NCBI GenBank assembly: GCA_949130485.1
Contig: OX422183.1
Coordinates: forward strand, 13,552,543-13,616,542
Direction: 5' to 3'
DNA: 64,000 nt
Source of the DNA: Agelas oroides
Lineage: Eukaryota; Porifera; Demospongiae; Agelasida; Agelasidae
A program made the translations under genes and the position numbers. This document shows, in pieces, positions 6,996-59,155 of the stretch; within the stretch, counting starts at the first letter, position 1, and each line of letters begins with the position of its first letter. The notes beneath the pieces were generated by a model, which did not search any database, was not told the DNA's origin, and worked only from the letters and a program-made list of their open reading frames with translations.

Positions 6996-7081
6996 ATGGC
7001 AGGTGCTTGCAAATACTTTGTGATGGTAGCAGTGACTGCGGGTGCCATTGTCTTGTCATTGCCACAAGCAGATGCCAATCA
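6996..7081 (+). CDS. gene 1 exon 1: signal peptide
   Basis: Starts ATGGCAGG and encodes MAGACKYF followed by a hydrophobic stretch ([14 protein letters not shown]) and a plausible signal cleavage region, PQADANQ. Donor GTTAGT; the exon ends in phase 2. The start was chosen because the 86-nt exon aligns along its length with gene 2 exon 1 (48849-48934), also 86 nt, which shares the CKY and VAV pattern. An in-frame GTG at 6984 was not used. Confidence 0.7.
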
Positions 7082-13000: not shown

Positions 13001-16000
13001 ATAGATATAATGCTTCTTGTCATTCCATAAAGAAACACTAAAATTAGCTCTTAAATACATTATCTGCTACTTTCATAATGTGCTACAAATTCAATAGCAT
13101 TATTTATCTTCCTATAATGTTATATAACTTGTGAACTGCAGATGTGAATGAATGTACTAGAGGTACTGATAGCTGCCATGGCAATGCAACTTGCCACAAC
13201 ACTCAAGGAAGTTACACCTGCTCTTGCAACACTGGATACACAGGCAATGGGTTTTCTTGCACAGGTAAGTGCTATTACCAACACTCTCTTCTCTTTCATT
13301 TCTATTGATGCCAGTGGGCATCATTTGACTTTGAACTTGCAGAACGAGTATGACAGGAGCCAGAGGTGGGTAGGTATTACCCTCTGGGTGACAGTACATG
13401 TCAACTGTTGTGCTTTGTGGTAAGAGGCAGGACTAAAATCACCATACAATATTTAGTACTGTAATCTCTCAAAAATACACCCATGGGCGATGAACTTAAG
13501 TGGCTCCTCAAAGAGGGGGGTGGGCGTATTTTCGAGAGTTGTGATATTTCTCTCGAAAATACACCCACCTCACACGCAGTTAGTCTAGCACTATTAATAT
13601 ACGCAAGCAGTGATTCTGCAATGCCACTTTTGTCATGCACTTGCTTATGCAATAACAGCAAATGGTGTCTGCCTTCATTTTGTTAGTCCCTCCTCTTGCA
13701 CACTGCTGCTTCTTTGGTGCTTCTCACTTACATAACCACATGTACTGAGGCATAAATAGGTGGGCATACTTTCGAGAGAAAAGCACCCTTTGCAACCAAC
13801 AACTTCGTTCAAAAAAGGGGGGTGGGCTTATTTTCGAGGGTGGGCCTATTTTCGAGAGATTACGGTACTCACATAATTATTTTCTATTTCTATATGCAAC
13901 TTGCAGATATTAATGAATGTACTGAAGGTACTGATAGCTGCCATCATAATGCAAGTTGCAGCAACACTCAAGGGAATTACACCTGCTCTTGCAACAATGG
14001 ATACACAGGTGATGGGATTTCTTGCAGAGGTAAGTGCAGCTATTTACAACACACACACTATATTCCCTTCCCTCAGTTAAAGGAGTTTTTCAGCAACAAA
14101 GGAGATTGTCACTGCAACTACTACCATTCAGATATTAATTACACTTTCCTGCACTAATATATTGTTCTGCTTAGAGTGAATATCTGTTTCAGTGTACTTG
14201 CTCACACTTGGTGCATGTTTCACACTGAAACTCATGAATAGCAAAAAAAATTTAGCACATGAAGTTTAAGTACACCTGACAAGTTTGTGTGTATTAAACC
14301 TACAGCACTGTTGTTCAGCAATGTCAAGGCCACGTATGTAAAGAAGATAAACCCTCATGAACCAATATTCATCACTTTGGAATTCTAAGCAGTGACCCTG
14401 TGCTTCTCCTTAGTTAGCTATCTACAAGATATCTCTGTTACACTCAAGAACAATACATATAATAATTATGCATAAGTAGTGTTTTTTGGCAGTCCATTAA
14501 TAGCCATAGATTCTTGAATGTACAACATTTTCTGCTGTTGCAGATCGCATTCATTTATGTCTTACACATTTAGCACTCACATTTAGCACTCACATTATAT
14601 ATTTTTTGCCAGAATTAGAGCTCCTACAAGATCAGAGTTGCATTTTCCTAGCCCATTTGTGCAATGAGGGAGAAAATTGGCCAACCCAGTGCCAACCAAA
14701 GCATTTCTACCGCCAAGCCTATAGAAGCAATCATAATTATGCATGTCACACTTTAGGTGACCCCATCCACCTCCTCCTCTCCCACCCCTTCTGCTCATGC
14801 AAAACTTAAACATTTTTTGGTGGAGATAAATTTTCCAAGCTAAGCTACACGTGAGAAGATGCAAGTGTTCCTGTTTGCACCAGTGCAAGAAGCATTATTA
14901 ATGCATTAATATTAATGCATTAATTTTGTATTTTTGTATTTCAGGTAAGGACAGACATACGCATTAATGTGGCAAAATCCATGCATTTTTTATATTAGCA
15001 TTAGCATTAGGAACATCTGTTTTGACTTCTCCTTGCCAGGTAAGCTATAGCTGAGTTCATTCTGTCACACCTCATGTTACACTATTTTCCTCACAGCTGC
15101 CAAATCTACCTGCACAGCCCTGCAAAGACTGTCAGAAAGTGCAAATTACCTGAACTGCAGCAGAAATGATCAGTGTGACACAGTCCACTGCAGTGTTATA
15201 GATTCCGTTGTCTCAAATCATCTACACCTTGTAAACTTCACAATTTTGCCTTGTAACCTGCAACCAGCAATGTGGCTGACTGGCAGTGACCTATCAGGTA
15301 GTTTAGTGCTGAACTATGTGCTCAGCCAGTCACAGAATATTTCACTGATCAAGGGATTTGTCACATTGAATGTTTCCGTGTTGCAGCTGATCAATGCGAT
15401 AGGATTTGAGGTCAGTGTTCTATACAATGAGTGCATGTACTTAAGTGATTGTACTGCAATAGATATCTGAGCCATAATGTCATAGCAAAATCAGATCAGA
15501 GTTTGGCACTAATAACAACATTTGTAGGAAGTACACCTATGTGCTTTATAGTCACAAATCTAAATCATGCTGCGGTTATATACAATATTATGATACAAGA
15601 ATGCAATCGGTTGTATTTGTTTACAGTGTCCTTGTTACATTGTACATCCTGCTGTATTTGTGGGCAGACTGGTTGCGTCTTTGCCTACAGCGGCAAACAG
15701 TCTGATGGATGTTCTAAAGGTTTAATGCACACTCTCATCAGTGAGTGCATGGTATCGCTCTATTTTGTTATAGATCAATCTTATTGTGAATCCCGGTAAA
15801 ATAAAACTGTTGTGCCCTACACACGAATCCCTATTGACACCTCAAGCTGTTCAAGTGAGTGAATCATTAATTCTTAATGTTGGGTAGAGACATTTCCAGT
15901 GAGAGACACAGCTGTATGAATTATTGTGAGGGATTTGTTTGCTTGCAAAAATCAGGAAGACTGTATACCGTATACATACTTGCTAATGCATGTGTGTTGC

Positions 16001-19000
16001 CATGCATGTTGGGCCCAATCTTGTTTTGTGCCAGTATGTGCACATGCTGAGTGCATAAGTAGCTCTGGATTGTCTTGTATGTGGAAGGCTGTAGAGTGAT
16101 ATTCGAAGTGCATAAAATATGCGCTATGCTGTGAGAAACTAGTGTGTTGTTAGTGAAGCAATAATTTAGTGGTTGTAAATAGGCTGATGTGGCATGTAGT
16201 GGATTGTGGTATGTGTGTGTGGTTGTTAAAATGATAAAATGATACAAGATGTAAGGATGGTGAAAATTGTGGTGTGATTCCTACCTTGTTGGTTGATATT
16301 TGGAGATTCTATACCTATGTGCACTTACCTTCATTTGAAAACTTTTTTCCACTTGTTATTGTCAGTTTGTTATTTATTTGTTTAGGGAGCGGAGGGGAGT
16401 CTAATTGCACTGTGTCTTTAAACATGGTGCTGTAATGCCTTTATTTTACAGAATTAATACATACCTGCTCCTCCTCGAGGCACACTATATCCCTATTGTG
16501 AATATATAGTACCTTCGTGGTACTAAAACACCAGCATGGCAAAATTTTATACACCCCTAGTCCTATTATCAGCTAACTAATTGGTATATTGTACATAAAT
16601 TTTATGCTTAGCTACGTACCTGCTTCTCCTGGAAGCAAAATGGCGTGTAGTTGGGAGCACTTTGAAATCATCAAACAAGGTTTGAGTTCTCCAAGGATGC
16701 TTTGTGGTGAGTGCAATACCTAGTAATACATTACATGATGCTTCTTTGCAATTGTAATAGCTCCAGTCATTACTGAGCTAGCCTGGCTGAAAAAAGAAAA
16801 AAGAAAAAGTAGATAAATGATTTGCCATTGATGCAAATTTTATTACAGTAGTGCATGGCTAGAGAACTTTGACAATCATGTTAAAGACAGAAAGGCAAGT
16901 ACCAGCCTTTATTCCCAGGCCAATTTTTCCACCCACTTTGATCATGTGATCATGTCTAGGATATAGAAAGCTAAGCATTCTGTAGCTACCAAACTTTCTA
17001 AGAATGTACCATTCCTCCCAACATGCACCTCTCATCTAGATACCTGCACAAGAAGACCCTTTGTATAGTAATAACAAAAGCTTAGTTTAAAGGTATGCAT
17101 CAAGATAGGAGCGCATTTATTACGCCAGTGAAGGAGCATGTAGCTAACAGGAAAATTCTAACATGGTGTCTTATTGCTAATTTTAGTAACAACCAAACTG
17201 GACTAGCTATCTGTACCTGAGGCTGTGAATCACAAAGTATGATATATAAATATTCTACCAATGTGAGCTATGGACAGGCATAATTGAAAATCAGATCTAT
17301 TTTTCTGTTTCTCAGTGAGTATAGACATGCAATCAGTGTTCTTGCTAGGCCTTTTTAGAGTAGTACACACTACTTAGTGAGCACCAGGGCACAACTTGAT
17401 TAGCTCCTGAAAACACTTGTGCACCTCAAATGGCAATTATGCTATTTACAGTGCCATTCGTGATGTATGCAGTAGCTACCGGTACTCCATGACCCACAAA
17501 CAAAAATGGCTGCTCCATCAAAAGGACATGTCTGAAGATCTGCTTTCGAATTAGTCAAACTGGGCCATTAGGAACCATACCAATGTTTACATGAGTAACA
17601 GATCAATAACATTGTTGGAGAGCATCACTGAAGTGTTAGACCAGTAAGTCACTAAACTGGGTTTAAACTCATGGGTTAACAGCCACTTCAAATCCTTTTC
17701 ATTGCTATTTTGTAACCCTACAGGTACAGCTCAGATTATGATCATCTCCAACAGTGCTACCATCACTGCTGGCAGCACAGAAGTGTTTATGTGTGTTGCA
17801 TCTGGCTACCCATTACCGTCTCTTTCTTGGAAAAGAGGTGGTACCTCCCTGAGGAATGGCTCCAAGTTTACCATCTATGAAGAGCTGTTGACTATGATTG
17901 GGATGACCTCTGTCCAGTCCACCTTGGAGATCAGCAGTGTGGAACCAGATGATGCTGCACGATATACCTGTGTTGCAAACAACACTATCGGATCAGCCAC
18001 TGCCAACTTCAGTTTGACTGTGAACCGTATGTGCTCTTGAGATATGTTTTATTGCTAAATAGGATTTTAATGATCAAATCAAACATCCCTTTTTTTGATA
18101 TGGTCTCTAGTGCAGGTGTTATTCAGCTAAGGCAGGTTTTTTTTTACATGCGAGAATAAATTACAAGTAATACTAATGTTGGCAGTAGGGTATAAGTAGA
18201 CTTAACTCACTTGCACTAGTGTATTTAATAATACTTAAGTACATAAGCAAAAACACTTTGGGAGCATTCTTTTTGGCAGTATGTGAATCCCAGAAAGTTG
18301 GTAATACAATCCTGGCAACAATCCTGGCAACAGCAACAGGTCTAGTATGTCATGAGAGTGTCGACAAAACATTACTCTGCATTTTTAAGCTGCCTCAAGT
18401 AGCTAACTAAGTATTAGGCATGACAGACTAGGCTGTGTTCTCAAAAACAACAGAGGTCAGCAGAAGATCAGACTTAGCCTGTGTGTAGAACCCCAGTCAT
18501 ACTAGTAGAACCTATAGGTAGGGAAAATGTCTCCATTGTGTGGCATCCGTTCATTACAAGCTGTTCTCTTCATTCATGACAACCTCTTTGCGAGGTAAGA
18601 CATTCTGGTAGCAGACTACCAATACAGCACAGCCACAATGAGCTACAAATCACTTGGACACTTCAGTGAAGTGCGCACTTAGCTACTGGCTTGCTGCACT
18701 AAAGCACATCCCATGCCTCCACAGCGCTTTTGATGGCAACGGTGCTTCCTTACAACACTGACCGATGTCTCTCAATAGGCTTTGCACGGTGTTATTAGCT
18801 CTTACACAACTCAGATACAGATACACAATAGTAGCATGGCCATCTTCTGCCCAGCAAGTTGGCTGCCTGTGTTCATCATCTCGCCTCTATACGGCTTCAA
18901 TTACCACCAATTAGCACCCACCATAGGTCTTAGACATACAGTGTTCATGCACTAGCAAGTTAGCTTCACTTCACTCTACATGCAATGGCTATGCTTATTC

Positions 19001-22000
19001 TTAGAAGTTGGATTTGTGCAACTAACTCCGATTCCCTGTTCCCTGCTCCAATTTTGCCCTAATCTAGTAAGGCTTCCACACTGTGTGTAGCTAGTGGGTT
19101 AGCTTATTGACATATTTATGGCAGGACAAGCTGATTTGTCCACCTGCATTCAAACCACCTGCATTCAAGTCACCATTTTCTTTCCACGTGGGGTGCGGTT
19201 AGGCTCAAAGAATAAATAAAAGGCTGGAATTTAAATATAGCTGAAGCCTTTTGGCAACGCTGCTCATTTAGCTTCTCTTGTGGTTCTCTGCTCAGTAACC
19301 CAAGTGGCTTACTGGTAAGGGTGTCTGACTACTATTCAGAAGGTTTGGAGTTTGAAACTCAGCTGATTCTGGGTTTTTATTCCTTTTGTACTCTTTCAGC
19401 ACTTCCATTGGGCTGAAATAGTGAACTGGACTGGTGGACTGATGCTAAAAATCATTTTCATGCTTTTGTAACACTTTCACTCACTTGTAGGGTTGTACGA
19501 GGCAGTAAAGTGACCCCCAAAATAGCTTTCTTCTTCCACAGAGTGATTTTGATACAAAGTTAACAATTTTCCAATGTTTAATCTTGACTTCATTTCTAAA
19601 ATTTGTTAGGGGAGTAGAGAGCAAAAGTTGCGTGCTAGGGGAGCAATGCCCTATGTTGTTGCACTTAAACATTTTTGACACTTGAGATTTGCATGTGGCT
19701 TGTTAGAAGAAAGGAACAAATATTGCTGCTGGTTACTTGATCAGCTTGCTCAGCTCATTATTATACACTTGAATGTTACAGTGTACGTACAGTATGTTAT
19801 TATGGTATAATGACATATGAACAGCTCACCAAACTGTTAACATCATCTGTGATCCTAGAAGATTGGTTTAAACATCTGGAAGGAGAAAGCCATTACACAC
19901 TGGGTACGAAGATCTTCACTAATACCATAAGCCTAGCGAGTTATTTGGTTCGAGACCATGCAGAAAAAGGCTACAGGTATCCACTCAACAGGCAAGGGAG
20001 TCTCCTTAGGAGGCATAAAAATGATTTCTGGTGCCGGCCCACCAGTCCAGTCCACTAGTCCAGTCCAGTGATTGTAGAAAACCCTTCCATCATGTATATT
20101 TAGCAGTAAACATGAATATTTGCATGCATTACCTTATACCCAGCCATAACCATCATCACAAGCATGCACACAAAGTCACCATACTGAGATTTTTGTGGAA
20201 AGTAGACAATGTAGGTTTTTTTCAGAAAGAGATAACTGGCTGCAATCCTTTATTTTAGCTAGATTAACATTCTGGCTGGTAAACAAAAACCATTTACTAT
20301 TTTATCAAAATTTGATTCCCTATTTAGAAATGTGAACTTGATTTTATGCAATTTGCATTAATGATCTTAGCTATATTTTGGAGGATCACAATCAGAAACC
20401 GGTTGAACATTGATGTTCACAAGCATTTGTGTTCAATGTAGTCAGAACAACCATTGTGAACCTAAACCAAAGAAGGGGAGAGCACTGTTCATTTGGGCTA
20501 ATAAACTAGCTAGCTAAATGTGAGTAATGATGAAACCCAGTTTGGGCAGTGATAAAACATATTTCGACTGAAAATGTCCAAAGGAAAAAAAATGCCTTAG
20601 AACTGACCTGAAAGGTTAAAAAAATTCCAAACTGTTTTGAGAAACATGTCCCCAATGACCCCCCCTCTCCCTTGAAAAAGCTTCTGTACTCACACAGATA
20701 GTATGGTACTCTAATACCATTGTTGGGTACTGCTAAAATTTTGCTGTTTAGACACTAGAACAGAATGGACCTTGTGCTAGAATCAGTTGCAAATTTAGAA
20801 TATATTTCTTCGTAGTTCTTCCACAGAGATTTCTCACATTTCTGCTGGGGCAATAGCTGGGAGTGTGCTTGCAGCCATGGCGATATTTCTTCTGTGCACT
20901 GGAGGTGCCATATTAGTAAACCTACAAAGAAGAAAGCAGCAAGCTAGGAAGGCTGAAATATCCAGGTACATTCCCAAGCTCCTTAAACATTAAACTTTCT
21001 TAACTATCAAGTCAAAAATGCACCCCAAGATACCTAAACAGTATTATCATAACACCTTTCTTAGGTGTTTAACACAATAGTCAACAGTATCCTTTAGGAA
21101 AGCCTGTTAGGTCTAGAATATACTGGGAGGTACACTGACTCCATTAAGATGTGGTCTAGCGGAACCCCTGATGTGGTGGTTGGAACTTTGAAGATAAGCT
21201 TAGATTGACTTTTTTTTTATTTTTAATTTTTTTACAATGATGGAGTTTAGTAGAGTTCTGTAGTTTCAGTAGCCGTGAGTAGTGCGTAATGCCTGCTTGT
21301 GAAAGCAAACTTGTGTCTAGAAGCAGCAGAAAGGCCACAGTGGCCAAGATTGTATTTGTTGAGTAGGCCCAGGTCTCGTGGCCGTATGCCTAGCCTAGTT
21401 GGTGACCGTGGCCAGGTGCTTTGAGTACTGGGCGGGGCTTTAAGGTGAATGTGAGTTTCATTGATGAAGTAGATGCACCATGCTAATAACCAACATTTTA
21501 TGTCCAGTGATACCTCTGCCCTGTGTATTAACTTACATTATAATCCTTTATCTCACATCTTGGGCTGGGTGTGATATTCTAGCTTTTGTTATGGAAGCCC
21601 ATGTCTCTACCGTAACAATACCAGTGGTATGTATTGGCATAATTATCCGAAAAAGCGCACTTTCTCTACTTACATAATTATGGCCATGGTAAACTTTCAT
21701 GACAATTCATGATACACAGCCAAAATAGAAATGCTAATTAAATATTACCTACCAGTTTACAAAATTACTACCTTTAGGTGTGTGACAGGTGCAAAAGCAA
21801 TAGTTATTAGTTTCTGCAATAAAGCTTAGCTCACAACTTAGTGTACATTCCCTTACTGTAGCCAGGCTCCTGTAAGAGTGATAGCTTTGTCCTGAAAATT
21901 CAGAGGTCCTCCTATTTTTGTACATGTACAGTAAAGTAGTATAGGGAAGGGGCATGCCCCCAGACCCCCTAGATCATATGGCCTTACACACGCATTCATC

Positions 22001-34800: not shown

Positions 34801-37800
34801 ACAGAAATATTCAATGTGATTCCATCGACCAGCGGAATGATCTGTAACTGGCTGAGCACACGGTCCAGGATTACACTACCTGAGTTATCAATGCCAGATA
34901 GCCACACAGTTGGTGGGAGGTTGCAGGGCAGGATTGTGAAGTTTACCATGCTGAGACGATCCTGGATTCGTCCAAAAGTAACATTGCAATGAACTGCATC
35001 ACACTGATCATTTCTGTTGCAGCTTAGAAACTGTGCACCTTCGGATAGTCTTTCCAGGGCTTTGCAGGTGGGTGTGACAGCTGTGGGGGAAATATTACAA
35101 CACTCAGTTATATATATGGGTAAGACAGTATGACTAAAATTTTCGATGACAAAGTGCTGCACTTCTAAGACCATCCGAGGCCTGTAACTCATAGACAATA
35201 GCTCTGATGACTTTAAAGTGCACATAATATTATCTATTTTTTATAACATATATGGCAACATGCTAGCCTCGTTCCCAGGCCCGCGCCCAGCTTTCCGTCG
35301 CTTGCAGTACGGTTCTGCAAGCGATGGGAAGCTGGGCGCGGGCCTGGGAACGAGGCTAGCAACATGCACGTATGCTGACAATTTGTGACTACGCACATGC
35401 AGTTAAAGTTATTGGAGTAAAATATTTATGCAAAAGTACCTGTTTCACATCCAGTACTATTCCATCCAGTACAGCTGTCACCATTTGGACATGATAGTGA
35501 ACATGGGACTGAAATAAATGGGTAGTATAAATTCAATCTGGTAACCAACAGTGGAACCCCGCTTAAGATGCTGCTCACAACTGAACCTATGAATATTCCA
35601 CATGTTACATTTGTCAAGTCAACCCAATCCAGTGCTACCACAGAACAAACATGACACCACTAATCATATTCTTGAGGACCAATGAACGGAATGTTTCCTA
35701 GGGGTGCCACACAGAGCTAGCTAAATTCAACCTGTATGAGGGGAGGGATTGCCTGACTTCCAGCCTGAATTACATGCCTTTAATGAGTATCCAAGGAGGG
35801 TTAATTGGATTCATAGCCTGGTTCTGTTCGGGTTTGAGTCCATGAAAGGCTTAGGGCATACTCATAAATATTCAACATCATTTACCCATTCCTTTCAACC
35901 CCAAGCCAAGCTGCCAATGCTTCAACAGAAGGTCAATAATGAGGTTCATGAGAGTCAACATACTCTAACCCTCCCATTGGACAGCTGACTGAACCCAGGG
36001 TTGTTCATGGGTAATGCTGAGGTCTAGTTAAAGTCAACTCATTAATATTCATAAGGTGGAGAGAAACCCTCCAGATTTTAGAGCTTGGTCAGGCTTTAAT
36101 TAGATTCATAGGCCCAATTAGGGTTAGGGAGATTAGGGTTAATGAGATTAGGGTTAGGGATTTTAGGGTTAAGGCAAACTAGGGTTAGGGCTAGGGCTAG
36201 ACTTAGGGTCTTAAGGTGGCGGTGAAGTCTTTCGGCAGAGGTTAACGAAAACATAAGCATGGGTTACAGTCAGGACCAGGGTTACTCCTAGTTTCAGGGT
36301 TAGGGTTTGCTTTAGGGCAATCTTGCTTTGCCTAATTTTAAAAAGGGTTTTAGTAGCTCATTAATATATTCATGAACCCAAAATTGCCACTCGATGGACG
36401 CATCTACATGCTCACTGTAGGTTGCGTCCTAACCACCAATGTATCTCAATTCAGTCTGTGCCAGCTTTTGTCCAGAGCTACTCTCAAAGTCAGGCTAGAC
36501 TCATGTTTGTCGCTGGTCTTGAAATGGACAACTTTGACTGCACCAAAATGAATGCACATTTCAAAAAATTCACAGCTTGTCTACGGGAGGGGCTCATTCA
36601 CGAGTGGAAGCAAGCATTACTAGCCCTAGTCTCGTGCCCAGACAACTTTTCGCCGAGCTGGAAAGTAGTCTGGTGAACTGCCTATACCGTTTTGGTTCCA
36701 ATATTTTGAAACTACCGTGACGTCACGTCAACTGGATTGTAAATCCAAAAGCGCTCTAGTAAACAGCAAACTCCTAGACAGCCTACTCGTGCTCCTTTCG
36801 ATAGATACAATAGCCTAGTCTACTCACGGCAGCTAGGGTTGCCCGATCAATGTCCATTTCGCTAGTAGATCGTTGGCACACAATGTGGAATGCAATCTTC
36901 GATGACGTTAAGCGTTAAATTCGAAAAGAACAATGCGCCAGCATTCCGGCGCACTTGAATGAAAACGGAATAGGCAGTTCACCAGACCCTTTTTTCCGGC
37001 GGGCGCGCGCGAAAAATGCGGTCTGGGAACGAGACTATACTAGCCCCACCTCTCCCCTTATGTCGCTAAACAACTCACGGTTCTGTTCCCCACACAACTC
37101 CTCTGCAGCTTTCTTGTCAACGGCAACGTAGTGCCAACGATATATTGCGCATTCTAGTTAAGGTTACGGGATACAGTTTGCTCATTAATATTCATGAGAA
37201 AATATTACCTTCCTTTTCTCCGTGCAGGAACCGGTGTACAGCACGCAATAGAAGCGACATATAACAGTACTATGAGTACCTTTTGACCAGTATAGTATTA
37301 ATTCTTATGTACAGCGTACAACTTACTTGAGGGCGGCTCGGAGCAACTTCGTCGCTGTGTGCCAGGGGAAGCGAGTGACACGCGTTTCTATCCAAAACCC
37401 CGGGGGTTTTCGACCGACCAAGCGACTAAATCTAGGCGTATATCAAAAACGGTAAGTCGTCTCGGCGAAAACTCTTCGAGCCACCCTGTGCCTGTCTTCG
37501 TAGAATTCAAATACAGTGTAACAAGATGTTCTTCAAACAGGAAATAACTGACACCGAAGTCAGTACTTCGTATGCGGACTATTAACCGCAGGCACTGCTA
37601 TCAAATTGCCTGCTCCTCCCACCCAACCAGCACAGCTGTTACAGGCTAATGCAACTTTTTTTAGCGGTAAAGTTAAACACATGCATGCCTGGATCCTGCA
37701 CGAAGATAATATTTTTAATGAATATTAATGAGCATAACTGTATCCCGTAACCTTAAAGCCCAGCCCAGCACTCGAAGCACCGGGCCACGATCACTTACTA

Positions 37801-45011: not shown

Positions 45012-45439
45012 CTATAAGAGTGAGCAGCAGGGTAGCTTACTGACCTGACAGGTAGCAGAGAAGACCAAGAGATCAATATTGAATGTCCTTTGAGCTTTTA
45101 TTCTGACACAGCACATGCAAGATTAAATGTTTTACCAGGCAAATGAGTGTAGGAAAGGGCCCGGAGCATTTTATAACACCGATATATATAGAGAGGGTGA
45201 ATGTGTGTGAATTATAGTGTGTCCTGCAGCTCCTGCTGAAGTCACCGAAATAATTGAACATCAATAGTGGCGTGTTGAACTATAGCAGCTCTCCTACAAC
45301 TGACATTTCTTGTGCAAATAGCTAGTGCAAATAGCTATACCTTTACTAGCCCACTGCAAAATCTGACATACCTGAATCAACCTTGTGAAATAGCTTTCTC
45401 CCTGGCAAGTACAGGGACAGGCGGGGCAAGAATTTTCAA

Positions 45440-46400: not shown

Positions 46401-46723
46401 GCATTTTGGAAAGTGTTTGCATGAAAGTGCACTCCAACTCTTCCATACTAGCATTGGTATATAGCTACCCACAAGACTTCTAAAAATTAATGTGTCTATG
46501 GGTGTAATCACCAAAATTGTAAACACGCATGCACCGGTATTTATGCAATTGAATTTACTAAGTCAAAAATAATGTAGATAGCAGCAGTGGCATAAAGGAC
46601 AAGCTCTTGCAGGCAGCCCTCTGTAGCCTGGGAAACAAGAGGGTGAGTCTTTTCACTGCTGCTGGTCTAAACAAACAGTTGACACGCAGCAAACATGTGC
46701 ACAAACTCATTAGTTGAACTCAC

Positions 46724-47365: not shown

Positions 47366-47489
47366 AACAACCAATCACTGGTGCAATGTTTTCTTCATGG
47401 TGTGCTTAGTCATTACTCATGTATCAGAGAGTCGGTAGACTCTCTATGTAGGGATGGCGCCGACACAATATATGCAATACTTAAGTCTT

Positions 47490-48625: not shown

Positions 48626-48848
48626 ACAAAGTACACTACTCATGAGTCCATTTATTTCCATTTCCTGCTTTTCCATATGCCCTTTTTCTTGTGTTTCAAG
48701 GGAAAAGTGGAATGGCCACAAAATCCACTCAACTTTCCTGTGTGTGGGCGTCTAGCCACATGTGTAAACTGATGGCAATATTTATAATTAGCTACCCAAT
48801 TTTGCAAGTAGCAGTTGAAGTAATTCCATGTATATAACACTGACAGAT

Positions 48849-48934
48849 ATGACAGCCATTTGCAAATATTGTGTGGTGGTAGCAGTGGCTATTTGGGCCA
48901 CTGTCTTGTCGTCACAGCAAACAGATGCCCAGCA
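48849..48934 (+). CDS. gene 2 exon 1: signal peptide
   Basis: Encodes MTAICKYC, a hydrophobic run [14 protein letters not shown] and QQTDAQQ, with donor GTGAGT in phase 2. Same length and pattern as gene 1 exon 1, which supports both starts and shows that the genes arose by duplication. Confidence 0.7.
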
Positions 48935-51900
48935 GTGAGTTATGCAGGTAGTATAGCACAATCATGTAGTGCATGTGTGACTCGCTTGGCCTCACCCATT
49001 AGGATTAATCAGTACAGTTCCAATATTACGATAAAAGGAGACACCACAGACTGACTGCACCAGTTTCAGTACTGTAACACTCAATGTCAAAAGTGTCTGC
49101 ACACAGGACACTGGTATAATAGGAGCTCTAACCTTCTTTAATTTTTATGACGGAATTTTAGTTTCCTTTAGTTACGAGAAGAGTGTAAAAATTCCCCAAA
49201 ATAGAGAATCAAAAAACTGCAATGGCCTATCTATGATGCCAGCTGTTTCCCAGATTATAGTATATAGTACACCTCTTCTCGTGGGGTCCCTGCTAGTCCT
49301 CTGAAAATACAGCTACTCAATCTAAAAAAAAAAAATAAGCAAGTAAGTTATTGAACGGGCACAGGGGAAAATCCAGATGGTTACAAGCGTAAATGCTTCA
49401 GTAATGCAGCTTCAAAATAGTTATTACTCCCAATGCTCACATGCTTTACAGAATTACTGTAGCTTAACAGGTGGAGCAATAGCTGACTCTGTGGAGGCTT
49501 GTAAAGATTTCTTGGTGGAAGACTGACTGAACTGTATGACAAAGAAGTAGTGTTTGTACTAAGCTTACATTGCCTTAAAGTTGAAAGCCAATGGCCAGTT
49601 GTCCAGTATCAATGATGTTAGTATCAGTGTCTACGGAGTAAATGAATGCCCCACAAATAAATAAATGTTAGTGCTTGAAATGTTTTAAAGTATGCAATGC
49701 ACAATCAATTGACATAGCTAAAATTTAGAAACAAATGTTAGTGCTTGAAATGTTTTAAAGTATGCAATGCACAATCAATTGACATAGCAAAAATGTATTG
49801 GAATTCCCCCCAAAATAAACTAATGATAGTGCTTGAAATGTTTACAGCATGTGATGTACATTTCATTTAGTTAGCAATGTTGTTTACTTAAGTTCCCCCA
49901 CAAGTAAACAAATGATTAAGTGCTTTCAGCATATACAGTGGAACCTCTCTTAAAGGACACCTCTGAAATAAGGACACCTGGTTAATCAGGACACTTGACC
50001 GAGTCCCGACTTTATATAAATACATATTATTCTTCCCCTGAAATAAGGACACCTCAAATATTTTGGTCCCAATGGTGTCGAGGCTCCACTGTAATGCACA
50101 TTTCATTGACTTAGCAATAAGTTCCCCCACAAATAAACAAATGATAGCACTTGAATATTTTCAGCAAATACTGTACATTTCAGTGACTTAGCAATGTTGT
50201 TTACTAGTACGTTTCCCCACAAATGGTAGAGCTTGAAATTTCTTTGGCATATAAGGTGCATTTGATCAACTTAACAATGTTGTTTACTTGGCAGTTCCTC
50301 CACAAATAAACAAATGATAGCACTTGAAATGTTTTTAGCATTTAATGCACATTTGATTGACTTAGCAATCCTGTTTATTCTGTTCCTTGTAGCTAAATAG
50401 TATGGTGCATTGCAGATCTATAGTACTTAGCGCAAAACACAAATGTTTCCCTCCAAACCATTTTTTAAAATTTAGATGAAAGGGTATGTTACTAAAACTG
50501 GTACTGAAGTGCAAGTAGCTGAAGCCCTAGAAGATGCGTGTGAGTGCAACAACATAATTTCCAATCAACACAATTGCTTACACTCAGTGCAATGTGTTTG
50601 CACACTGGAATTGTAATGGGTAGCAAATACTGTTGCAGCTGAAGTTAAAGCATTATATATGCACTGGATGAAGTCCAACTTTTTGGAGTGATATTAAACC
50701 TGCACCACATTGAATAAATTTCATGCCAAGTTTGGTCACCGTAAGCCACTGTTCTAATAATATATATCATTTTGCAACCCAAAAGTGGTAGTCAGGCAAT
50801 CTTTCTGGAATCATACTTCAGCAAACCATTTTGTGTGTGAATGTTTTACCAAAGCAGAGTGTCCTACACATTCTTTTTTCATAATTAGAATACAAAATGC
50901 TTCTGTTTGGTCACTCTGTTGTCAGGTACATGGTACATCCTTGGTTCCTCCATTTGGGCTACTTTCTGTATGCAAATTGTGTGGATTGAGCTTGTTGGTT
51001 TGTGTGCATGTATTGTAAGTTTTGTGGGTATTTGGGTCACTATCTCCTCCAAATTAGGTGCCTAATGTAATGGGTTCCTCTACATAATACATCTACATTA
51101 CTCCACTCTCCAAATCATTTTGTTAAACTGAACTGGGGCCTTATTCAGACAGTACAAGTAGGGACAATATGACTTACAAATTCAGCAGTCAGACTGATCC
51201 TACGTATTAATATGGCTTTTGAACTGTACATGTGAATGTTTCTGAGTGTTTGAACTTTGAAACTGGATTAAGTCTTGCATTGCTCTTGCGAGCAACAGCA
51301 CAAACATGTAGTTTACAATGACTGGAATGGCCAAAGCTGTATTGCCTGTAGTGGCTCCCACAGCCTTTCATAAAATTAGACCAATAAAAAATAATAATGC
51401 AATGGCATAGTGCTTCTAACAAGTCTGCAAAGAAAGACTGAATCTTGAATATAACATCATCTACTGTTCTTGATCACACTTATTCGATGTCTTGCACATT
51501 TCATCATCACATAGTGTCATCCTAATGTAATGGCTTGTGACTGCAGATGTGAATGAATGTACTCAAGGCATCGATAGGTGTCATTCCCGTGCAACTTGCC
51601 ACAACACTCCAGGGAGTTACACCTGCTCTTGTAACACTGGATACACTGGGAGTGGGTTTACTTGCATTTGTAAGTACATTTTTTTCCCATTACAGATTCA
51701 CTATGGTTAACTTCTTTACATTTGTTTGTTTGTTTGTTTTGTTTTTGCTATTGATGCCAACAAGCATCATTTGATTCTGAACTTGCCTATGATGTCACTT
51801 GGCACCGAGCATTCTGGAGATTAATTATTTCTGCACTTGCAAAAACAGTGGTAGAAGTGTAGATGAGTGTGTGTTACTCTCCGCACATGAAAGGTGTTGT

Positions 51901-54900
51901 GTTTGGCTGTGGAAAGAAGGACTAACATATAGTTCTACTTTCCTGATCGCATTCATTTATTGTTATATAGTTATACCTATTGTTTTATAATAACTTGCAT
52001 GTGAACTGCAGATGTGAATGAATGTACTCAAGGCATCGATAGGTGTCATTCCCTTGCAATTTGCCGCAACACTGAAGGGAGTTACACCTGCTCTTGCAAC
52101 AGTGGATACACTGGGAGTGGGTTTACTTGCATTGGTAAGTGCTTTTTTCTCATTACAGATTCACTATGGTTAACTTCTTTACATCTTTGTTGGTGTGGTT
52201 TGTTTGTTTGTTTGTTTGTTTTTCTTTCTATTGATTCCAACAAGTATCATTTCATTTCGAACTTGCCTATGATGTCACTTGGCACCGAGTATTTTGGACA
52301 TTAATCATTAATTATTTCTGCACTTGCAGAAACAGCGGTAGAAGTGTAGATGAGTGGGTGTTACTCTCCGCACGTGAAAGGTGTTGTGTTTGGCTGTGGA
52401 AAGCAGGACAAACATAGTTCTACTTTCCTGATTGCATTCATTTGATATGCTGTACAATTTAGTAGTTATACTTATTGTTTTAAAATAACTTGCATGTGAA
52501 CTGCAGATGTGAATGAATGTACTAGAGGTACTGATAGGTGTCATTCCCGTGCTACTTGCCACAACACTTATGGGAGTTACACCTGCACTTGCAACACTGG
52601 ATACACAGGCAACTACCCACTGTATTTAGCAGAGGTTAACTTTCCATTTTCAAGTATGTAATCCTGCATTACTTGCATTAATTCCTTTTCTGGAATAATT
52701 GTATTACATAGTAATTATGCAGAGTAGTCCAACCCCAAAACATCTTGAACCTGAACTCAAGATTGTGGTAGTGATATGCAGAGGAAGAGTCACTGGCAGA
52801 AGGCCACAACACTTAAAGCTATACTCAAAAACTGGCCTTTTTCATGCAAAAAATAATTACAGGCGCAATATTCCAGGTATATGTATGAACAGTCACATAT
52901 TTCATACTCTATTATTAAATTTGACATTATACTCTGTGTGTATGACTTCTGAACTGCAGACCTGAATGAATGTAGAAGAGGCTCTCATATGTGTCATCTT
53001 GATGCAACTTGCCACAACACTCCAGGGAGTTATACCTGCTCTTGCAATCCTGGATACACAGGCAATGGTACTTTCTGCACTAGTAAGCTTTTCTTTGCAA
53101 AGTTTTATTTATAAACAATATATATTTCATTTGTATCGAACGTTCTTCTCATATGCATCCAGATATTAATGAGTGTCTCAACAACAATGGAGGTTGCCAT
53201 CACAACTGCCATGACTCAGATGGAAGTTACACTTGTTCCTGCAGCGATGGCTACCAACTTAACAGTGATGGAGACACTTGTGATGGTATAGGTTATTATG
53301 CAATTGAGAAATCCTAGTCACTAGACTAAATTATGACTAGTGAGTGATCAGCATATAAGAGCGTATTAAAATAGTTGTTCAGCATGAGTTCAGGACGAAG
53401 AAAATTCTACTTTTAGAAGACTCCAGCATCCACTGTGATGCAAAAAGTTAGTTCAATCATGGTGCATTCCAATTTTGTCCACTGTCCAGCTATCTGCAGG
53501 ATCCAGGTTTTAAAGTGTAGCTATTGACATTGTGTGAACTAAGTGTGTATACTTTATTCAGTACAGTATACATACTAATCATATTAACTTAAAATAATTT
53601 AGTAGTTACATTTTATTCCATTACTGTTATGACTTCTTAATTACAGATGTGGATGAATGTATTTTTGCTGATAGCTGTCATACCAATGCAACTTGCAACA
53701 ACACTGAAGGGAATTACACCTGCTTTTGCAACACTGGATACACAGGCAATGGCTTTTCTTGTACAAGTAAGAGCATGCATTCTTCCATCATTACACTCAA
53801 AGATGCATGAAGCAGATTTATATATTGCAGTGAATCAAATTATCAGCCAAAGAAAGCAAGGGCACCGAATCACAGGGTTGTAGCAGCCAGTACAGCTGGT
53901 AAGGCTTTGGTACCTGATACAACACATAAATGATTTACCACTGTACATATAGACTACATAATCTTCATCTTGTAACATGTATGTGAATGCTTCAACAATC
54001 ATATTGTAGCCTTGCACCATGCAAAGTTATTTTCTTATTTCTGATACCACAAGTCACTTCCAATATGTATATCGTATAAGTAATCAATTTGGACATATGG
54101 AAGGCCTGAGAACAAGCCCGAGTTTCCAACATGCCTCTGGGAAGTAGGTATTCATGCTGTAGTCTTGGCTGCCTTTCCAAATGACACGAATTCTACCAAG
54201 GTTGGCCAGTATGTTTGTGTTCACCATCCTGTAAATGTACGAATTACAAGCCTGTTTGCAGATTGCAAGTTTTGATGTAAAATACGGATGCTGTTTGTAA
54301 TGATTCATTGCAATACCAGAATGTACCATACAGACGCTAGTTTCTGCCTACATACTGGTACTGCCATCCTGTGATGCACTGCTCCAAATTTTCTATACCA
54401 GACATCCAATATAAAAGTCAGACATGATAAATTCAAGTCACATTCAAATAGCTTTTTGACTCACTTGGTGCCCCATATTCCTGTTTCATGCAATACATAA
54501 AGTAGATGGGTACAATGTGGAACATGTGGTCATTTGTTAATTTGGACATTATTTGAAGTATCAAGTAACATACCTTTACATGATGTAATCCTCAACAGTT
54601 GTGGACTGTGGCACTCCAACTATTCCAGCCAATGGCCAAGTTAGTCACACTGCTGGAACAACATTTGGACAGACAGCCACCTACAGTTGTAATACAGGCT
54701 ACAGCCTGGTGGGAGGCAGTACTCGCATGTGTCAAGCTACAGGAAAGTGGCCTGAAAATGCACCTATCTGTCATGGTATGTTGTTATTGAAGCTTGTATG
54801 CTATATATTGGGTGAAACCATACAACATAATGCTCACATAACATAGTTTTGGAATGTTTATCTCTTAACCTGCTCTTGAAACACTGCAATGCATTTACTT

Positions 54901-57900
54901 ACACAAGTGCATCTATTTCCAATTATAGCAACTATGCTGCTTACAAACATTCTATGCTTGTGTATTCAGACATTAACAAATCCCTCAGCAACAATAGGGG
55001 CTGTCACCGCAACTACCATGTCTCAGAATTCAATAAAACTTCTTCCTACAGTAATGGCTATCAAGTTATAACTTTTACCAACCATGAGTGATTGAAATAT
55101 CATGTAGTAGAACATGCTGATTACAACTGCATTTATTGCATATGTACACTGTGTATATTTCTAGTCATAAAATATCTGGCAAAACGCATTACGAGAAACT
55201 CTGGCCTTGCCTAGGCTTGTTGAAGTTGTGGCCTTATTAATGTGAAACTGTGAAGTAAAATGATTAAAACTTGTCATGTCAGAAGTTACTACCATCAGTA
55301 CTTTCAGATACTCGTAGCCTAGCCATAACATTTTTGTTTTCTTTCAAATCTGCAGCAAGGTTAGATTCTTCCTTCTTAGCTTATCTATTTGGTTTTACAT
55401 TTAATTTAGGTTTATCTTCTAGCTCACATGTAGCTGGTTTTCAGTTGAAAAACTCATAGTTAGTTTCTGTTAGATGCATGTAGGTACAGTTACCATATAT
55501 ACCAAGGGAAAAATGAAGTGCATAAGCCTAGCAGTATAATTATGTGTCCATTGGTCATTAATTTTAGTAGTGGATTCATTTACGATGTTTATAATATTAT
55601 GACATTGTGTCTTTGGTCAGCAAAGGGGTAATAGTGATCGATACACTTGTGAAGGTAGAGTTGCAAAAAATGTATTATTTAACACAATCTAATACTAAAA
55701 ATCTGGACTCTGGACTAATGTAGACACTATACTCTAATTGATACTAATTGATGCATCCATTGCCACATTATTACTGTTCTGATCGTTAAATGCACTGCCC
55801 TATCTATTCTGCCTGTGTCACTTAGCTGCAGAATCCATGTATCCCAGTGTAGCCTTGGAGTATCTCTAAGCCTTTTTACTGTATCTATTATGAAACACTG
55901 TCCTGAGTCTATATAATTGGATACTCTTCATTTGTATTTTAAATCACATTTCAGTTGGCATTATAAAGTTCAATCTACTGTAACCAGAATTCAAAGTGCA
56001 CTTACAATCTCTCCTTCGCAGCCTTCTTTCTGCATGAATATAGAATTGGCTACATTTTAATCACATTCAGTTGACATTATACAAATCCAACAGTTATGTA
56101 TTATTTTTTGTTCCCCTATTGCTATGGCTTGCAGATGTGAATGAATGCACTGAAGATACTGATAGCTGTCATGACAATGCAACTTGTAACAACATTCAGG
56201 GAAGTTACAACTGCTCTTGCAACACTGGATATGCAGGCAATGGGTTTTTGTGCACTGGTGTGTAAGTCCATCCCTTTTGAAAGGTTTGCATTTACAGAGA
56301 TTTACATTTCAGATGTTAATGAGTGCCTCGCCAACAATGGAGGTTGTCACCACAACTGCCATAACTCAGATGGAAGTTACTCATGTTCCTGCAATAGTGG
56401 CTACTGGCTTGACAGTGATGGACACACTTGTGAAGGTTGGTAAAATATTATTATGCATCTAAGAAATACATTGTACTAAATATGAAAGAAGTAGTTGTCA
56501 CTGTATTATATACAAATGGTAAGAACATAATGTACATGTGACGTTATTTACAGCACATTAATTGCATCTAAGGAGTAGTAGTTGTCCTATTACTATTAAT
56601 TTTTCAGATTTGGGTACTTATGATGAGAGGATTGATCATACATATGACACACACATAGGAATTGGTTGGCATGGCGAACTACTATGTAAACAATAACAAC
56701 AGTAACATATAGTAATACAAAATAACTCAAAATCTAGCTTCCAATAAATGCATGTTGTTATTTAACATCATGCACGTATTTCTTTTATCTGCAGCATCAA
56801 TAGAGTTAATATTTGGTAAGTACACCTATAGCTGTGTTTCCAGTGTTGGTATATGGGAAAAGAAATGGCCTGGCACACACTGTTTGTACATGCTCAGATT
56901 CCTCAATGGCGAATTTGTTTGATATGCACTTAGTGAGTTGTGAGAACAGTGCATTGTGCCTTTTGTTTTGGTTTTCAAGTTTTTAATTTTTAGCTTGCTG
57001 TTTGTATGCAAGACAGCATCAGGTATGTAAGCCATCTGTACTGAAAAATCTGCCAGCTATAATAGTACTAGTCGCATACTTCACATGCTTATTTGGACCC
57101 AAAATCAAATGGAAATTATGCATGGAATTAGTGCTTGTGCTATCCCTGTACCAGTGTATCCCTTTGTTGGTTTTGCAGGAGTGCTTGGTAGTGGAGGAAT
57201 GGTAATTATCATTGCCACTGCCCTCATAACAATTGGTTTCATCATTATTAAAGGAAAACATGCCTCAAAGAAACCAGGTGAGTGGAGAGTAAAGTGATAA
57301 TAGCTGATGTAAAAGTTTGCTTTAACGTGCAAATACCAGGAGCATACAGTTGTTTAAGCTGTCCAAGTGCAGTCTAAATCATGTCCATGCAGCTAGACTA
57401 GTAAACTGTTGCACTCAAGTAAACAGTAAGTTTATTCTGGTCTTACAGTCACGTTCCATGAGCCTTCACTGAGCAACCAGCAACTGTTCAACTAAGAACT
57501 GGGTCTTACTTGATATGCCTGGAAGAGGTAATCTCATCAGCATTGCTGTGTACAGCTTGAGGCTTGAGGGCAATGTTGTATTTGTACATAGCCACCAAGA
57601 ATATACAACTCTAGGATTCTAGCAGAAGTGGGTGATAGAGCTAGGCTTGTTTTCGCCCAAGAATTAATTGGTAAGTAAAAGCTTGTGGTCAGTGAGTAAT
57701 GTAATATATGCATGCTAACCATTTGCAGAGAAGCCATAGTTTTGAGTGGTCATTTCTTTCCGATGACAAAGTCCTTGAGGCAAATACAATTGCCACTTAA
57801 CCAATTGGGCATCTTGTAGCTACCATAAAACAGGACTAATCACCATTAGCTGAGAAATCACTGAACTACCAAGTCTAACTTTGGATTGTAGGAACTCATG

Positions 57901-59155
57901 CTAAGTTCATTTTCTAATTACTTGTAAATGGGTGATGAGATATTACTTTATCTATATCTACAAACCATATCTACAAACCTACCATATCTACAAACCTGCA
58001 TCCAATATAATCAACAGAAGTGCCAGGAGCCTACAGTTTTCCTGATTAAAAAAAATGATGGCCTGTTCAGTACATCTTCTAGCACTGATGTTTGACTGCT
58101 CTCATCCCATGGCTAAAAACTTCTGATCCGTACAACTAGTCTTGCTAGGGGCCTGGAAGCAAGTTACATAAGGTACTTTGAGATTGATTCTAAAATGTGC
58201 TATTCTCTATACTTCCAAATTATTCACTTTCTGAGCGTAAACCTCTCAGCCTGTCACCTTTAACTGTATTCAAATTTGTGTCTGTTTGACACTTCCTACA
58301 TATTAGCCATATTGTACTATGTCTTATTTATATGATTGAACTCCTTTTATCTGCAGTTGAATATTGCAGTACAAAAGTGATTGTTACTGTAGCCTAAGTG
58401 ACTCACACTACTACCCCAAGTGGAAAAAATGAATTAATAGTTCTTTGGACTCTACTAGCCCCTAATTTATCTCCCCTCATCCACCCCTCTGATGAGTATA
58501 GATGACTCAGGAATGTCTTGTATTTTAAGTTATCCACAACAGGCTGAAAGGTGCTGACAAATTTATGTAGAGGAGGTGGAAGTAACAGAACAGTCATTTC
58601 TGTGTCATTTTAGCGCCTACAGCTGGGTATTTCAGTTGTGGGCCTTTGAGTTGCTGCAAACTGGAAAGTACCACTATTCAGGAGGTCACCTAGTATGTCA
58701 TGAAGCATGTGTCCTTTTTACTTGTGAACTATTATTGCCAGGGCATATTCCTATCGTTCCAGGGCTTGGGCAATGGCTATGCCACAACTACTATATTATG
58801 CCTTCATTCACTTTTGTTTGCCCCTACAGGTACTCTCCATGTCACTGTGAATATGAAATTTGTTTCCCAGAGTCCACTTGATGCTGAAGACTCCCCACCT
58901 CCAATTCCTCCAAAGCTATTTTTACATGATGAATTTGATGACAATCTCCCACCTCCAATTCCTCCAAAGCTATTTTTAGACGATGAAGATCCTCCCCCTC
59001 CAATACCCCCAAAACAATTCTCTGATGATGACTTCCTACCAGCCATGAAACTACCTAAGAGCAGGGGACCACAGCAAATTGGTAGGGATCCTTCTTCCCA
59101 ATGGCAAACCATTTTGGTACTACTTCATACATGGTTGTGGGGTGGCAAGCTATGA
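48849..59155 (+). CDS. gene 2: multi-EGF and sushi membrane receptor, kinase-less
   Basis: Exons read: 48849-48934, 51547-51669, 52012-52134, (52507- decayed), 52960-53082, 53163-53285, 53647-53766, 54599-54775, 56135-56257, 56313-56435, 56795-56815, 57179-57277, then either 57449-57495 with a stop or 58830-59155. All modules from 51547 to the membrane exon are phase 1-1, so they can be gained or skipped without shifting the frame. The exon linking 48934 (phase 2) to 51547 (phase 1) is missing from my model. A further possible phase 1-1 exon is 56608-56664. The product should be a surface protein with seven EGF domains and a sushi module, and no enzyme domain. Confidence 0.75.
49640..50375. 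repeat. satellite-like array of about 80-90 bp units
   Basis: About seven diverged units share AAATAAACAAATGATAG, GCTTGAAATGTTT, a GCACATTTGATTGACTTAGC-like core and TTGTTTACT. Two units near 49660-49795 are almost identical. One unit is split by the MITE at 49936-50091. It lies in the first intron of gene 2. Confidence 0.75.
49936..50091. mobile_element. TA-flanked MITE inside the satellite
   Basis: Inverted ends CAGTGGAACCTCTC and CAGTGGAGCCTCGAC. Flanked by TA on both sides (49934-49935 and 50092-50093). Neighbouring satellite units show the uninterrupted sequence with one TA, so insertion and TA duplication are directly visible. Non-autonomous Tc1/mariner type. Confidence 0.85.
51547..53766 (+). 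CDS. gene 2 EGF array, five intact exons and one decayed
   Basis: Exons at 51547, 52012, 52960, 53163 and 53647 each encode one EGF of calcium-binding type (D-V-N-E-C, D-L-N-E-C, N-I-N-E-C, D-V-D-E-C). The exon at 53163 is the short NNGGCHHNC type. The first exon ends in T rather than G, so the next domain would start Y-V-N-E-C, losing the calcium-binding Asp. The third (52507 onwards) lacks the last cysteine and the usual donor. The first two exon-intron units are near-identical tandem copies. Confidence 0.85.
52507..52650 (+). pseudogene. decaying EGF exon with lost donor and sixth cysteine
   Basis: It begins normally ([12 protein letters not shown]) and is intact to GYTGN, but then reads YPLYLAEV where NGFSC and the donor should be. 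AG|GTTAAC at about 52633 is a poor substitute that would break the phase 1 pattern. As a symmetrical exon it could be skipped harmlessly. Confidence 0.55.
54599..54775 (+). CDS. gene 2 sushi (CCP) domain exon
   Basis: A 177-nt phase 1-1 exon with four cysteines and the family pattern: [41 protein letters not shown]. The Trp before the last Cys is present. Sushi domains mediate protein binding, as in complement regulators and adhesion receptors. Confidence 0.95.
54970..55085 (+). pseudogene. fossil EGF exon
   Basis: Aligns along its length with the NNGGC-type exon at 53163: [16 protein letters not shown] stands where [16 protein letters not shown] would be. Most cysteine codons are lost and the donor is gone. 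A second scrap at 55625-55656 (NSDRYTCEG) matches only the 3' end of such an exon. Confidence 0.7.
56135..56435 (+). CDS. gene 2 last two EGF exons
   Basis: 56135-56257 encodes [28 protein letters not shown]. 56313-56435 encodes [30 protein letters not shown]. The separating intron is only 55 bp, far shorter than others here. Both are phase 1-1. Confidence 0.9.
56795..57277 (+). CDS. gene 2 stalk microexon and transmembrane exon
   Basis: A 21-nt phase 1-1 exon (56795-56815) encodes SIELIF. The next, 57179-57277, encodes GVLGSGGMV, a hydrophobic helix ([15 protein letters not shown]) and KGKHASKKP on the cytoplasmic side. The microexon was found by its perfect phase and splice sites (CTGCAG, GTAAGT). 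Confidence 0.75.
57449..57495 (+). CDS. gene 2 alternative terminal exon (short tail)
   Basis: After acceptor TCTTACAG, an in-phase 47-nt frame encodes [15 protein letters not shown] and a TAA stop. It would leave a tail of roughly 25 residues. It competes with the proline-rich exon at 58830; both accept phase 1. Confidence 0.45.
58830..59155 (+). CDS. gene 2 proline-rich cytoplasmic tail exon
   Basis: In phase 1 after CCTACAG. Encodes [10 protein letters not shown], then three repeats, [20 protein letters not shown] and [10 protein letters not shown], separated by acidic DDED-type linkers. P-x-x-P-x-K is a class II SH3 ligand form, so the tail could dock SH3 proteins. The frame runs to a stop at 59155, or the exon ends at 59081 (ATTG|GTAGGG) and continues elsewhere. 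Confidence 0.7.

Follow-up and report, generated by a model that had tools for sequence, protein, structure and literature searches.

To our knowledge, the receptors by which sponges recognise self have not been established with certainty, and how early animals wired new receptors is an open question. A 64,000-nucleotide (nt) stretch of the genome of the sponge Agelas oroides (assembly GCA_949130485.1, contig OX422183.1, positions 13,552,543 to 13,616,542 of the forward strand; hereafter the window) raises it, because three adjacent predicted receptor genes there share outer exons and end in different cytoplasmic parts. Which parts are shared, how such a cluster could have arisen, and whether it should be read as a recognition locus are the questions considered here. 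An initial annotation of the window had described clustered membrane receptors in which ectodomain exons recur in front of three cytoplasmic ends, and our analysis supported this description; the ends showed no detectable homology to each other. The cluster is probably (at a probability of roughly 0.75) a small, lineage-specific group of type I membrane receptors made by duplication and shuffling of phase-1 exons.

Gene numbers are those of the initial annotation, and positions refer to the window. The genes lie in the order gene 1 (plus strand, 7.0-29.4 kb), gene 3 (minus strand, 35.5-31.1 kb) and gene 2 (plus strand, 48.8-59.2 kb), so that gene 3, which perhaps extends further upstream, stands between the other two. 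The span given for the cluster, 6996..59155, was confirmed, since 6996 is the ATG of the gene 1 signal exon and 59155 the last base of the gene 2 stop codon. As modelled, gene 1 has the architecture EGF-EGF-Cys-linker-Ig-transmembrane (TM)-tyrosine kinase; gene 3 has Cys-linker-EGF-EGF-TM followed by a long acidic, Ser/Thr-rich tail; and gene 2 has eight EGF exons, a sushi domain, a TM segment and a tail with three PPIPPK motifs.

Exons shared between the genes

Shared parts were identified by DNA-level self-comparison of the window. The signal, Cys and linker exons concerned are as follows.

6996..7081, plus strand: signal exon of gene 1; ends in phase 2; not joined to the EGF exons
48849..48934, plus strand: signal exon of gene 2; ends in phase 2
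15097..15410, plus strand: Cys-domain exon of gene 1; phase 1-0; shared with gene 3; no Pfam match
34770..35080, minus strand: Cys-domain exon of gene 3; phase 1-0
15774..15854, plus strand: linker exon of gene 1; 81 nt, 10 nt shorter than that of gene 3; alternative donor after 15858
34305..34395, minus strand: linker exon of gene 3; 91 nt; phase 0-1; bears a further Cys

The signal exon said to be common to genes 1 and 2 was recovered (6989-7093 against 48842-48946; 74% DNA identity over 105 bp, E 1e-11), with the ATG and the donor at matching positions. The match scored 68.9 bits against a maximum of 32.8 bits in 500 dinucleotide shuffles of the gene 2 piece; a chance origin was ruled out, the real score being above all 500 shuffles. 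The Cys exon was likewise common to genes 1 and 3, as had been claimed (15075-15472 against 35102-34704; 75% DNA identity over 404 bp, E 1e-69), and directly after it we found a second exon common to these two genes, the linker, which was absent from the initial annotation (76% over 156 bp, E 4e-24). Both the signal and the Cys+linker copies are local duplicates, with matching splice sites plus some intron flank. The copies are not fresh, as indicated by synonymous divergence (dS), which reached 0.52 in the Cys exon and 0.40 in the signal exon. At the end of the Cys exon, 57 nt were 91% alike, compared with 74-79% in the other two stretches of the exon, which hints weakly at local exchange.

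Six comparisons at loose settings, covering the 5' introns, the intervals between TM and tail exons and the region upstream of gene 3, yielded no convincing shared exon, the best having an E-value of 3e-4 over 13 residues, aside from one repeat (E 8e-7 and 4e-4). These comparisons likewise revealed no Ig, sushi or TM exon common to two genes, and the 5' introns of genes 1 and 2, set against each other, gave no convincing shared exon.

EGF exons

The EGF exons of the cluster, all in phase 1-1, are as follows.

13142..13264, plus strand: EGF exon 1 of gene 1; EGF_3 9.1e-13
13907..14029, plus strand: EGF exon 2 of gene 1
51547-51669, 52012-52134, 52507-52653, 52960-53082, 53163-53285 and 53647-53766, plus strand: EGF exons 1-6 of gene 2 (51547..53766)
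56135-56257 and 56313-56435, plus strand: EGF exons 7-8 of gene 2 (56135..56435)
33647-33769 and 33412-33540, minus strand: the two EGF exons of gene 3 (33412..33769)

The claim that EGF exons are shared by all three genes stood for genes 1 and 2 and fell short for gene 3. By DNA identity, the EGF exons of gene 1 intermix with those of gene 2 and with a lone exon at 62981-63103; those of the main type are 70-87% identical between genes 1 and 2 and 72-94% identical within gene 2. Gene 2 has a second EGF type (exons 5 and 8; 84% alike mutually, 50-57% to the main type), and its third EGF exon lacks the last Cys. The two EGF exons of gene 3 are only 45-66% identical to those of the other genes, a likeness barely above that between the two types of gene 2. 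A tree of 13 EGF exons did not sort by gene, and 176 of 500 label shuffles clustered gene 2 as well as observed; with two of its ten inner branches strongly supported, the tree fits intermixing and gives no order of events. The freshest event seen was the tandem copying of the first two EGF exons of gene 2, which are 94% alike.

The lone EGF exon at 62981-63103 (plus strand) shares 74-84% identity with main-type EGF exons in genes 1 and 2. Its match to the first EGF exon of gene 1 (81% over 203 bp) extends into the upstream intron; it may mark the beginning of a fourth gene or simply be a stray. An open reading frame (ORF) at 54831-55088 (plus strand) has a weak likeness to the second EGF type of gene 2 (42% over 45 residues); lying between the sushi exon and EGF exon 7, it may be the remnant of an EGF exon.

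These data bear on the possibility that three unrelated receptor genes, carrying common mobile modules and having no functional link, became neighbours by chance. The EGF exons of gene 3 are distant from the others, the TM segments and tails of the three genes lack detectable homology, and EGF, sushi and Ig domains are among the commonest modules of animal proteins. The signal and Cys+linker exons, however, are real local duplicates that match in their splice sites and in some of the flanking intron, and we consider chance adjacency somewhat unlikely.

Three cytoplasmic ends

The part of gene 1 that follows its EGF, Cys and linker exons comprises the following.

17724..18026, plus strand: Ig (I-set) exon; phase 1-1
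20827..20965, plus strand: TM exon; starts in phase 1; Kyte-Doolittle hydropathy 2.35 over 19 residues
23252..29435, plus strand: juxtamembrane region and tyrosine kinase; exons 23252-23337, 23631-23714, 24559-24749, 25033-25145, 26077-26242, 28069-28211 and 29246-29435 (stop)

From the Ig exon to the stop codon, gene 1 formed a single open frame of 470 residues in nine GT-AG exons, with one clear TM segment by hydropathy. Pfam identified in this frame an I-set domain (1.2e-16) and a PK_Tyr_Ser-Thr domain (1.4e-85) covering profile positions 2-257 of 258. The kinase, which had been annotated as active, is intact in that the domain is complete and the catalytic residues and G-loop are present, and it is predicted from its sequence to be active; it also carries the motif CW..RP. 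A broken kinase domain was ruled out by the complete Pfam domain. Among the matches listed from the PDB (60 of 2555), the best for chains aligned in one stretch were MET and AXL, then MER, at 226-231 bits, while EGFR scored 195 bits per domain.

An ORF in a gene 1 kinase intron (26576-26986, plus strand) is Arg/Glu-rich and looks mobile-element-like by eye; it had no Pfam match at E<=0.1. Upstream of gene 1 lies a direct repeat (1269-1730 and 6220-6681; 92% identical in a 473-column alignment). The intron between the TM and kinase exons and the region upstream of gene 3 contain a pair of inverted repeats (21144-21446 and 37750-37935; 94% and 85%), both outside the exons found.

The remaining exons of gene 3 are given below.

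35440..35508, minus strand: candidate short Cys-rich exon; phase 1-1; splice-consistent, otherwise unsupported
33142..33268, minus strand: TM exon; starts in phase 1
32131..32161, minus strand: juxtamembrane exon of 31 nt, linking the TM exon (phase 2) with the tail exon (phase 0)
31143..31898, minus strand: cytoplasmic tail exon; 251 residues, acidic, Ser/Thr-rich, stop codon TAA; nine relatives

From the short Cys-rich exon to the stop codon, gene 3 is one open frame of 544 residues in eight exons. Hydropathy gave a best window of 2.74, with the next-best (2.12) directly before it. The long tail that had been reported for this gene was borne out, as the TM exon joins it in frame via the 31-nt exon, and so was its composition (42 D/E, 12 K/R and 60 S/T among 251 residues). 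A search with the tail returned 10 proteins, one from the window itself and nine relatives that were 54-81% identical by BLASTP and 62-83% identical in the alignment, by which a spurious ORF was ruled out. Compared with a second group of these relatives (P0016-P0019), the first 36 residues of the tail were identical at 29-32 positions, the remainder at 103-118 of 171-194; another relative, P0015, retains sequence across the modelled tail acceptor (CLSQ|D). With gene 3 counted, the tail tyrosines in ECYDPS and SEYV were kept in 9/9 and 8/8 of the rows with a letter at that position. A third, in LTYNPV, is Tyr in six of nine such rows and Phe in three; LTYNPV, a short motif, fits the ITIM consensus.

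Upstream of gene 3, an ORF at 39963-40105 (minus strand; CQFETLNPSSSYAIANESEQVVVDQSDSRGQ...) is splice-consistent as an exon at 39965-40105 and is a possible upstream exon of this gene; it had no Pfam match up to E 0.1. Just upstream of the gene 3 Cys exon is a near-perfect inverted repeat (35261-35361; 50-nt arms 94% complementary, 1 nt between them) resembling a miniature inverted-repeat transposable element, with a related piece at 10047-10078.

Gene 2 ends with the following exons.

54599..54775, plus strand: sushi/CCP exon; phase 1-1; Sushi 6.4e-13
57179..57277, plus strand: TM exon; phase 1-1
58830..59155, plus strand: tail exon; three PPIPPK (PxxPxK) motifs, no tyrosine

From the first EGF exon to the stop codon, gene 2 is one open frame of eleven exons (534 residues as scanned), with one clear TM segment by hydropathy from the sushi domain on. 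The TM exon joins the tail in frame, in agreement with the PPPIPPK tail annotated for this gene. Within the locus, ORFs at 49035-49301 and 54084-54272 had no Pfam match up to E 0.1, and one at 49347-49523 had none up to E 1; in the 5' intron, 49644-50386 consists of degenerate repeats related to a 70-bp tandem unit.

Two of the three cytoplasmic ends would fit, in principle, tyrosine-kinase signalling, by the PxxPxK motifs of gene 2 and the conserved tyrosines of gene 3.

Exon phases and a shuffling model

The EGF, Ig and sushi exons and the TM exon of gene 2 are in phase 1-1, the Cys exon is 1-0, the gene 3 linker is 0-1, and all three TM exons start in phase 1. The Cys exon and the gene 3 linker therefore behave as a pair like one 1-1 unit, the linker of gene 1 being shortened. 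A single phase class allows exons to be copied between genes without breaking the frame, which accounts for outer parts that are shared piecemeal and inner ends that are not; and since every TM exon begins in phase 1, a given set of outer modules can precede any of the three inner ends.

On this basis we propose that EGF, sushi and Ig exons and the Cys+linker unit were copied between neighbouring genes with the frame kept. By what is generally known of these families, ectodomains made of EGF, Ig, sushi and Cys modules would bind protein ligands, which for the three predicted receptors would be extracellular or on cell surfaces. Gene 1 would signal through a MET/AXL/MER-like tyrosine kinase and, as in these families generally, may autophosphorylate upon ligand-driven pairing. 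Gene 2 would dock SH3 adaptors through its PxxPxK repeats, the three motifs being suited to class II SH3 domains. In gene 3, the conserved tyrosines and the likewise conserved membrane-proximal segment may serve phosphorylation and adaptor binding, and the tyrosines, when phosphorylated, could dock SH2 or PTB proteins. The three products may work together or independently; that gene 1 phosphorylates gene 3 is a guess.

Several points weigh against the shuffling model. The three gene models are predictions from genomic DNA. The distance of the gene 3 EGF exons from the others is one such point, and the EGF tree, being mostly without resolution, would give no direction or time of exchange. The acceptor before 23252 in gene 1 is weak and was picked to fit the phase, and the 31-nt exon of gene 3 was selected because both of its phases fit. 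In genes 1 and 2 the signal exon, ending in phase 2, does not fit the first EGF exon, which begins in phase 1, so that at least one exon per gene was not found; no exon joining either signal exon to its gene was located.

The linker of gene 1 is a further point. With the donor homologous to that of gene 3, the reading frame does not continue into the Ig exon and 29 stops appear, and the EGF and Cys exons join the Ig-TM-kinase frame only via a non-matching donor. A donor 4 nt downstream (GTGAAT, not GTGAGT) gives one open frame of 685 residues to the end of gene 1. The use of this donor, an exon not found, an assembly error or a dying gene are possible explanations. We therefore considered whether gene 1 is decaying in this haplotype, with gene 3 as the working Cys receptor, or uses the weaker-looking donor. 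The linker length (81 against 91 nt), the 29 in-frame stops with the matching donor and the persistence of the homologous frame after the linker gap speak for decay. However, the nine exons that encode the Ig domain, TM segment and kinase are undamaged and form an open frame, a state that a gene long dead would have lost; the downstream donor gives a single open frame, and an assembly error or a further exon is possible. We regard this reading of gene 1 as unlikely. It and the other alternatives to the shuffling model overlap and are not mutually exclusive, so that the probabilities attached to them need not sum to one.

The Cys domain and the recognition hypothesis

No Pfam family matched the Cys exons. 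A profile search of 5.8 billion predicted proteins retrieved 11 proteins, namely the two from the window and nine relatives, 58-82% identical to the gene 3 domain in the alignment. The 3' end of the exon (GFE or GLE, then V) was kept in all nine relatives, and the 5' end was alignable in eight. With nine predicted-protein relatives each, the Cys exon and the gene 3 tail exon are both real. The exon-sized queries succeeded, whereas a search with the full-length gene 1 model returned no homologue over the Cys part among 109 candidates. Among viral contigs, one scan for the domain produced 25 pattern matches, none of them a relative. The gene 3 Cys ORF (P0001) was listed on two contigs (the longest of 2,779,238 bp) and the gene 1 Cys and tail ORFs (P0011, P0012) on one (1,953,603 bp), perhaps representing two haplotypes or assemblies.

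Against PDB sequences, the gene 3 exon alone gave one match at E 0.48, and the 11-sequence profile gave none up to E 10. AlphaFold2 with the 11 sequences produced a Cys-domain model with a mean pLDDT of 76.1 and a pTM of 0.66, which no solved structure matched well.

The initial annotation had likened the cluster to paired receptors with similar outsides. This did not hold, as each pair of genes shares only part of its ectodomain (the signal exon and related EGF exons in genes 1 and 2; Cys+linker in genes 1 and 3) and the order of modules differs. The members are not alike along the whole ectodomain, other modules standing alongside the shared ones, and no shared Ig, sushi or TM exon was found; the genes are thus not paired receptors in the vertebrate sense.

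A recognition complex, directed at self or microbe, could take another form, in which partners share the Cys module and the kind of ligand bound, have opposite or complementary outputs, and the gene 1 kinase acts on the gene 3 tail. The clustering of genes with a shared module and different insides is consistent with this, as are the two tail tyrosines kept in all rows with a letter. Variation in the Cys domain offers two weak points in favour. First, of all 13-residue windows in the family, the loop at residues 35-47 varied most (mean pairwise difference 0.62 against 0.37 overall), and it differed more than the remainder in 54 of the 55 pairs of the 11 aligned sequences, although the loop was picked after looking and the pairs are non-independent. 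The lone exception was P0005/P0010 (1/13 in the loop against 16/90), in which the start of P0010 is poorly alignable; of the near-identical pairs, P0005/P0008 was the sharpest (6/13 against 5/90, uncorrected p 0.0004), and P0006/P0007 gave 2/13 against 5/90 (p 0.21). Second, the gene 3 exon and its nearest relative, P0002, were identical at 85 of 104 positions and the adjoining intron, read in frame, at 39 of 49, indicating that, between these two sequences, the rate of change of the exon protein is close to that of non-coding DNA.

However, the ratio of nonsynonymous to synonymous divergence (dN/dS) of the Cys exon between genes 1 and 3 was 0.48 and stayed under 1 in all four segments (0.35, 0.94, 0.19 and 0.85, the 0.94 segment overlapping the loop), which relaxed constraint fits equally. 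These data are marks of weak constraint and leave room for diversifying selection. The words 'receptor' and 'tyrosine kinase' were absent from the main text, in the part available, of a graft-response transcriptome paper (PMC5450542). Together with the partial sharing between every pair of genes, these points lead us to regard a recognition complex as very unlikely. We consider it slightly less probable still that Cys+linker is an undescribed sponge ligand-binding module that serves as a swappable recognition head, once on a receptor kinase and once on a partner that lacks a kinase and has a tail open to phosphorylation. The fast loop, lying between two strands, would then form the contact surface, and the two receptors would give an early animal a recognition system with two outputs.

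Comparison with known receptor systems

The shuffling model has precedents. Ectodomain shuffling in receptor kinases is established according to the available part of PMC8662651, and the RTKB family of the choanoflagellate Monosiga combines related kinases with diverse ectodomains, one with SCR and EGF modules, according to that of PMC3584944. To the extent these two sources cover them, the lineage-specific receptor tyrosine kinase radiations of choanoflagellates and other holozoans resemble the sponge cluster in having EGF, sushi/CCP and Cys-rich ectodomains in non-standard combinations and in ectodomain shuffling. RTKB as described in the available text of PMC3584944 differs in that its kinases are related and their outsides diverse, whereas in the sponge cluster an ectodomain module is shared and the cytoplasmic ends differ, two of them being non-kinase.

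The gene 1 kinase resembles MET and AXL/MER in that these gave the top one-stretch PDB scores (226-231 bits) among the matches listed, a ranking by score and not a tree. MET and AXL/MER family ectodomains are built as Sema-PSI-IPT or Ig-fibronectin III. The ectodomain of gene 1, in contrast, is EGF-Cys-Ig, and no Sema or fibronectin III domain was detected in the exons scanned with Pfam, unplaced 5' exons being outside the scan.

Vertebrate immune paired receptors are likewise clustered genes with partly related outsides and different insides, but in the sponge cluster the ectodomain is shared in part only, and no short-tailed, adaptor-pairing receptor was seen. The Alr complex of Hydractinia, a cluster of Ig receptors according to the available part of PMC11999971, is similarly a membrane-receptor cluster in a non-bilaterian animal. 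The sponge locus differs from it by its single I-set domain, confined to one gene, by an architecture of EGF and Cys modules and by the presence of a receptor kinase. No tandem Ig family of the V-set-like Alr type was found, gene 1 having one I-set domain (the V-set model reached just E 0.045), and Pfam matched no Ig domain in genes 2 and 3 as modelled, exons missing from their 5' parts being outside the scan.

Other elements in the window

On the plus strand at 45389-46424, overlapping ORFs resemble a broken reverse transcriptase by eye; 45657-46424 had no Pfam match at E<=0.1. A tandem array of TTAGGG-like units with periods of 15 and 30 bp lies at 36116-36190, and 61999-62025 is a run of 27 C. 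No Rfam families or tRNAs were found in the window.

Significance

A literature search found no description of this cluster, which is no proof that none is in print. Ectodomain shuffling itself is already established; the novelty is an exon-shuffled receptor cluster, a module without a Pfam name and an unusually plain exchange of cytoplasmic ends. The Cys module, which belongs to no Pfam family, deserves a name if its relatives are as widespread as the nine matches suggest. If genes 1 and 3 share a ligand, the locus would place a kinase in genetic linkage with its possible substrate. The locus shows the process half-done, with the same outer exons, still recognisable at the DNA level, standing before three different signalling ends.

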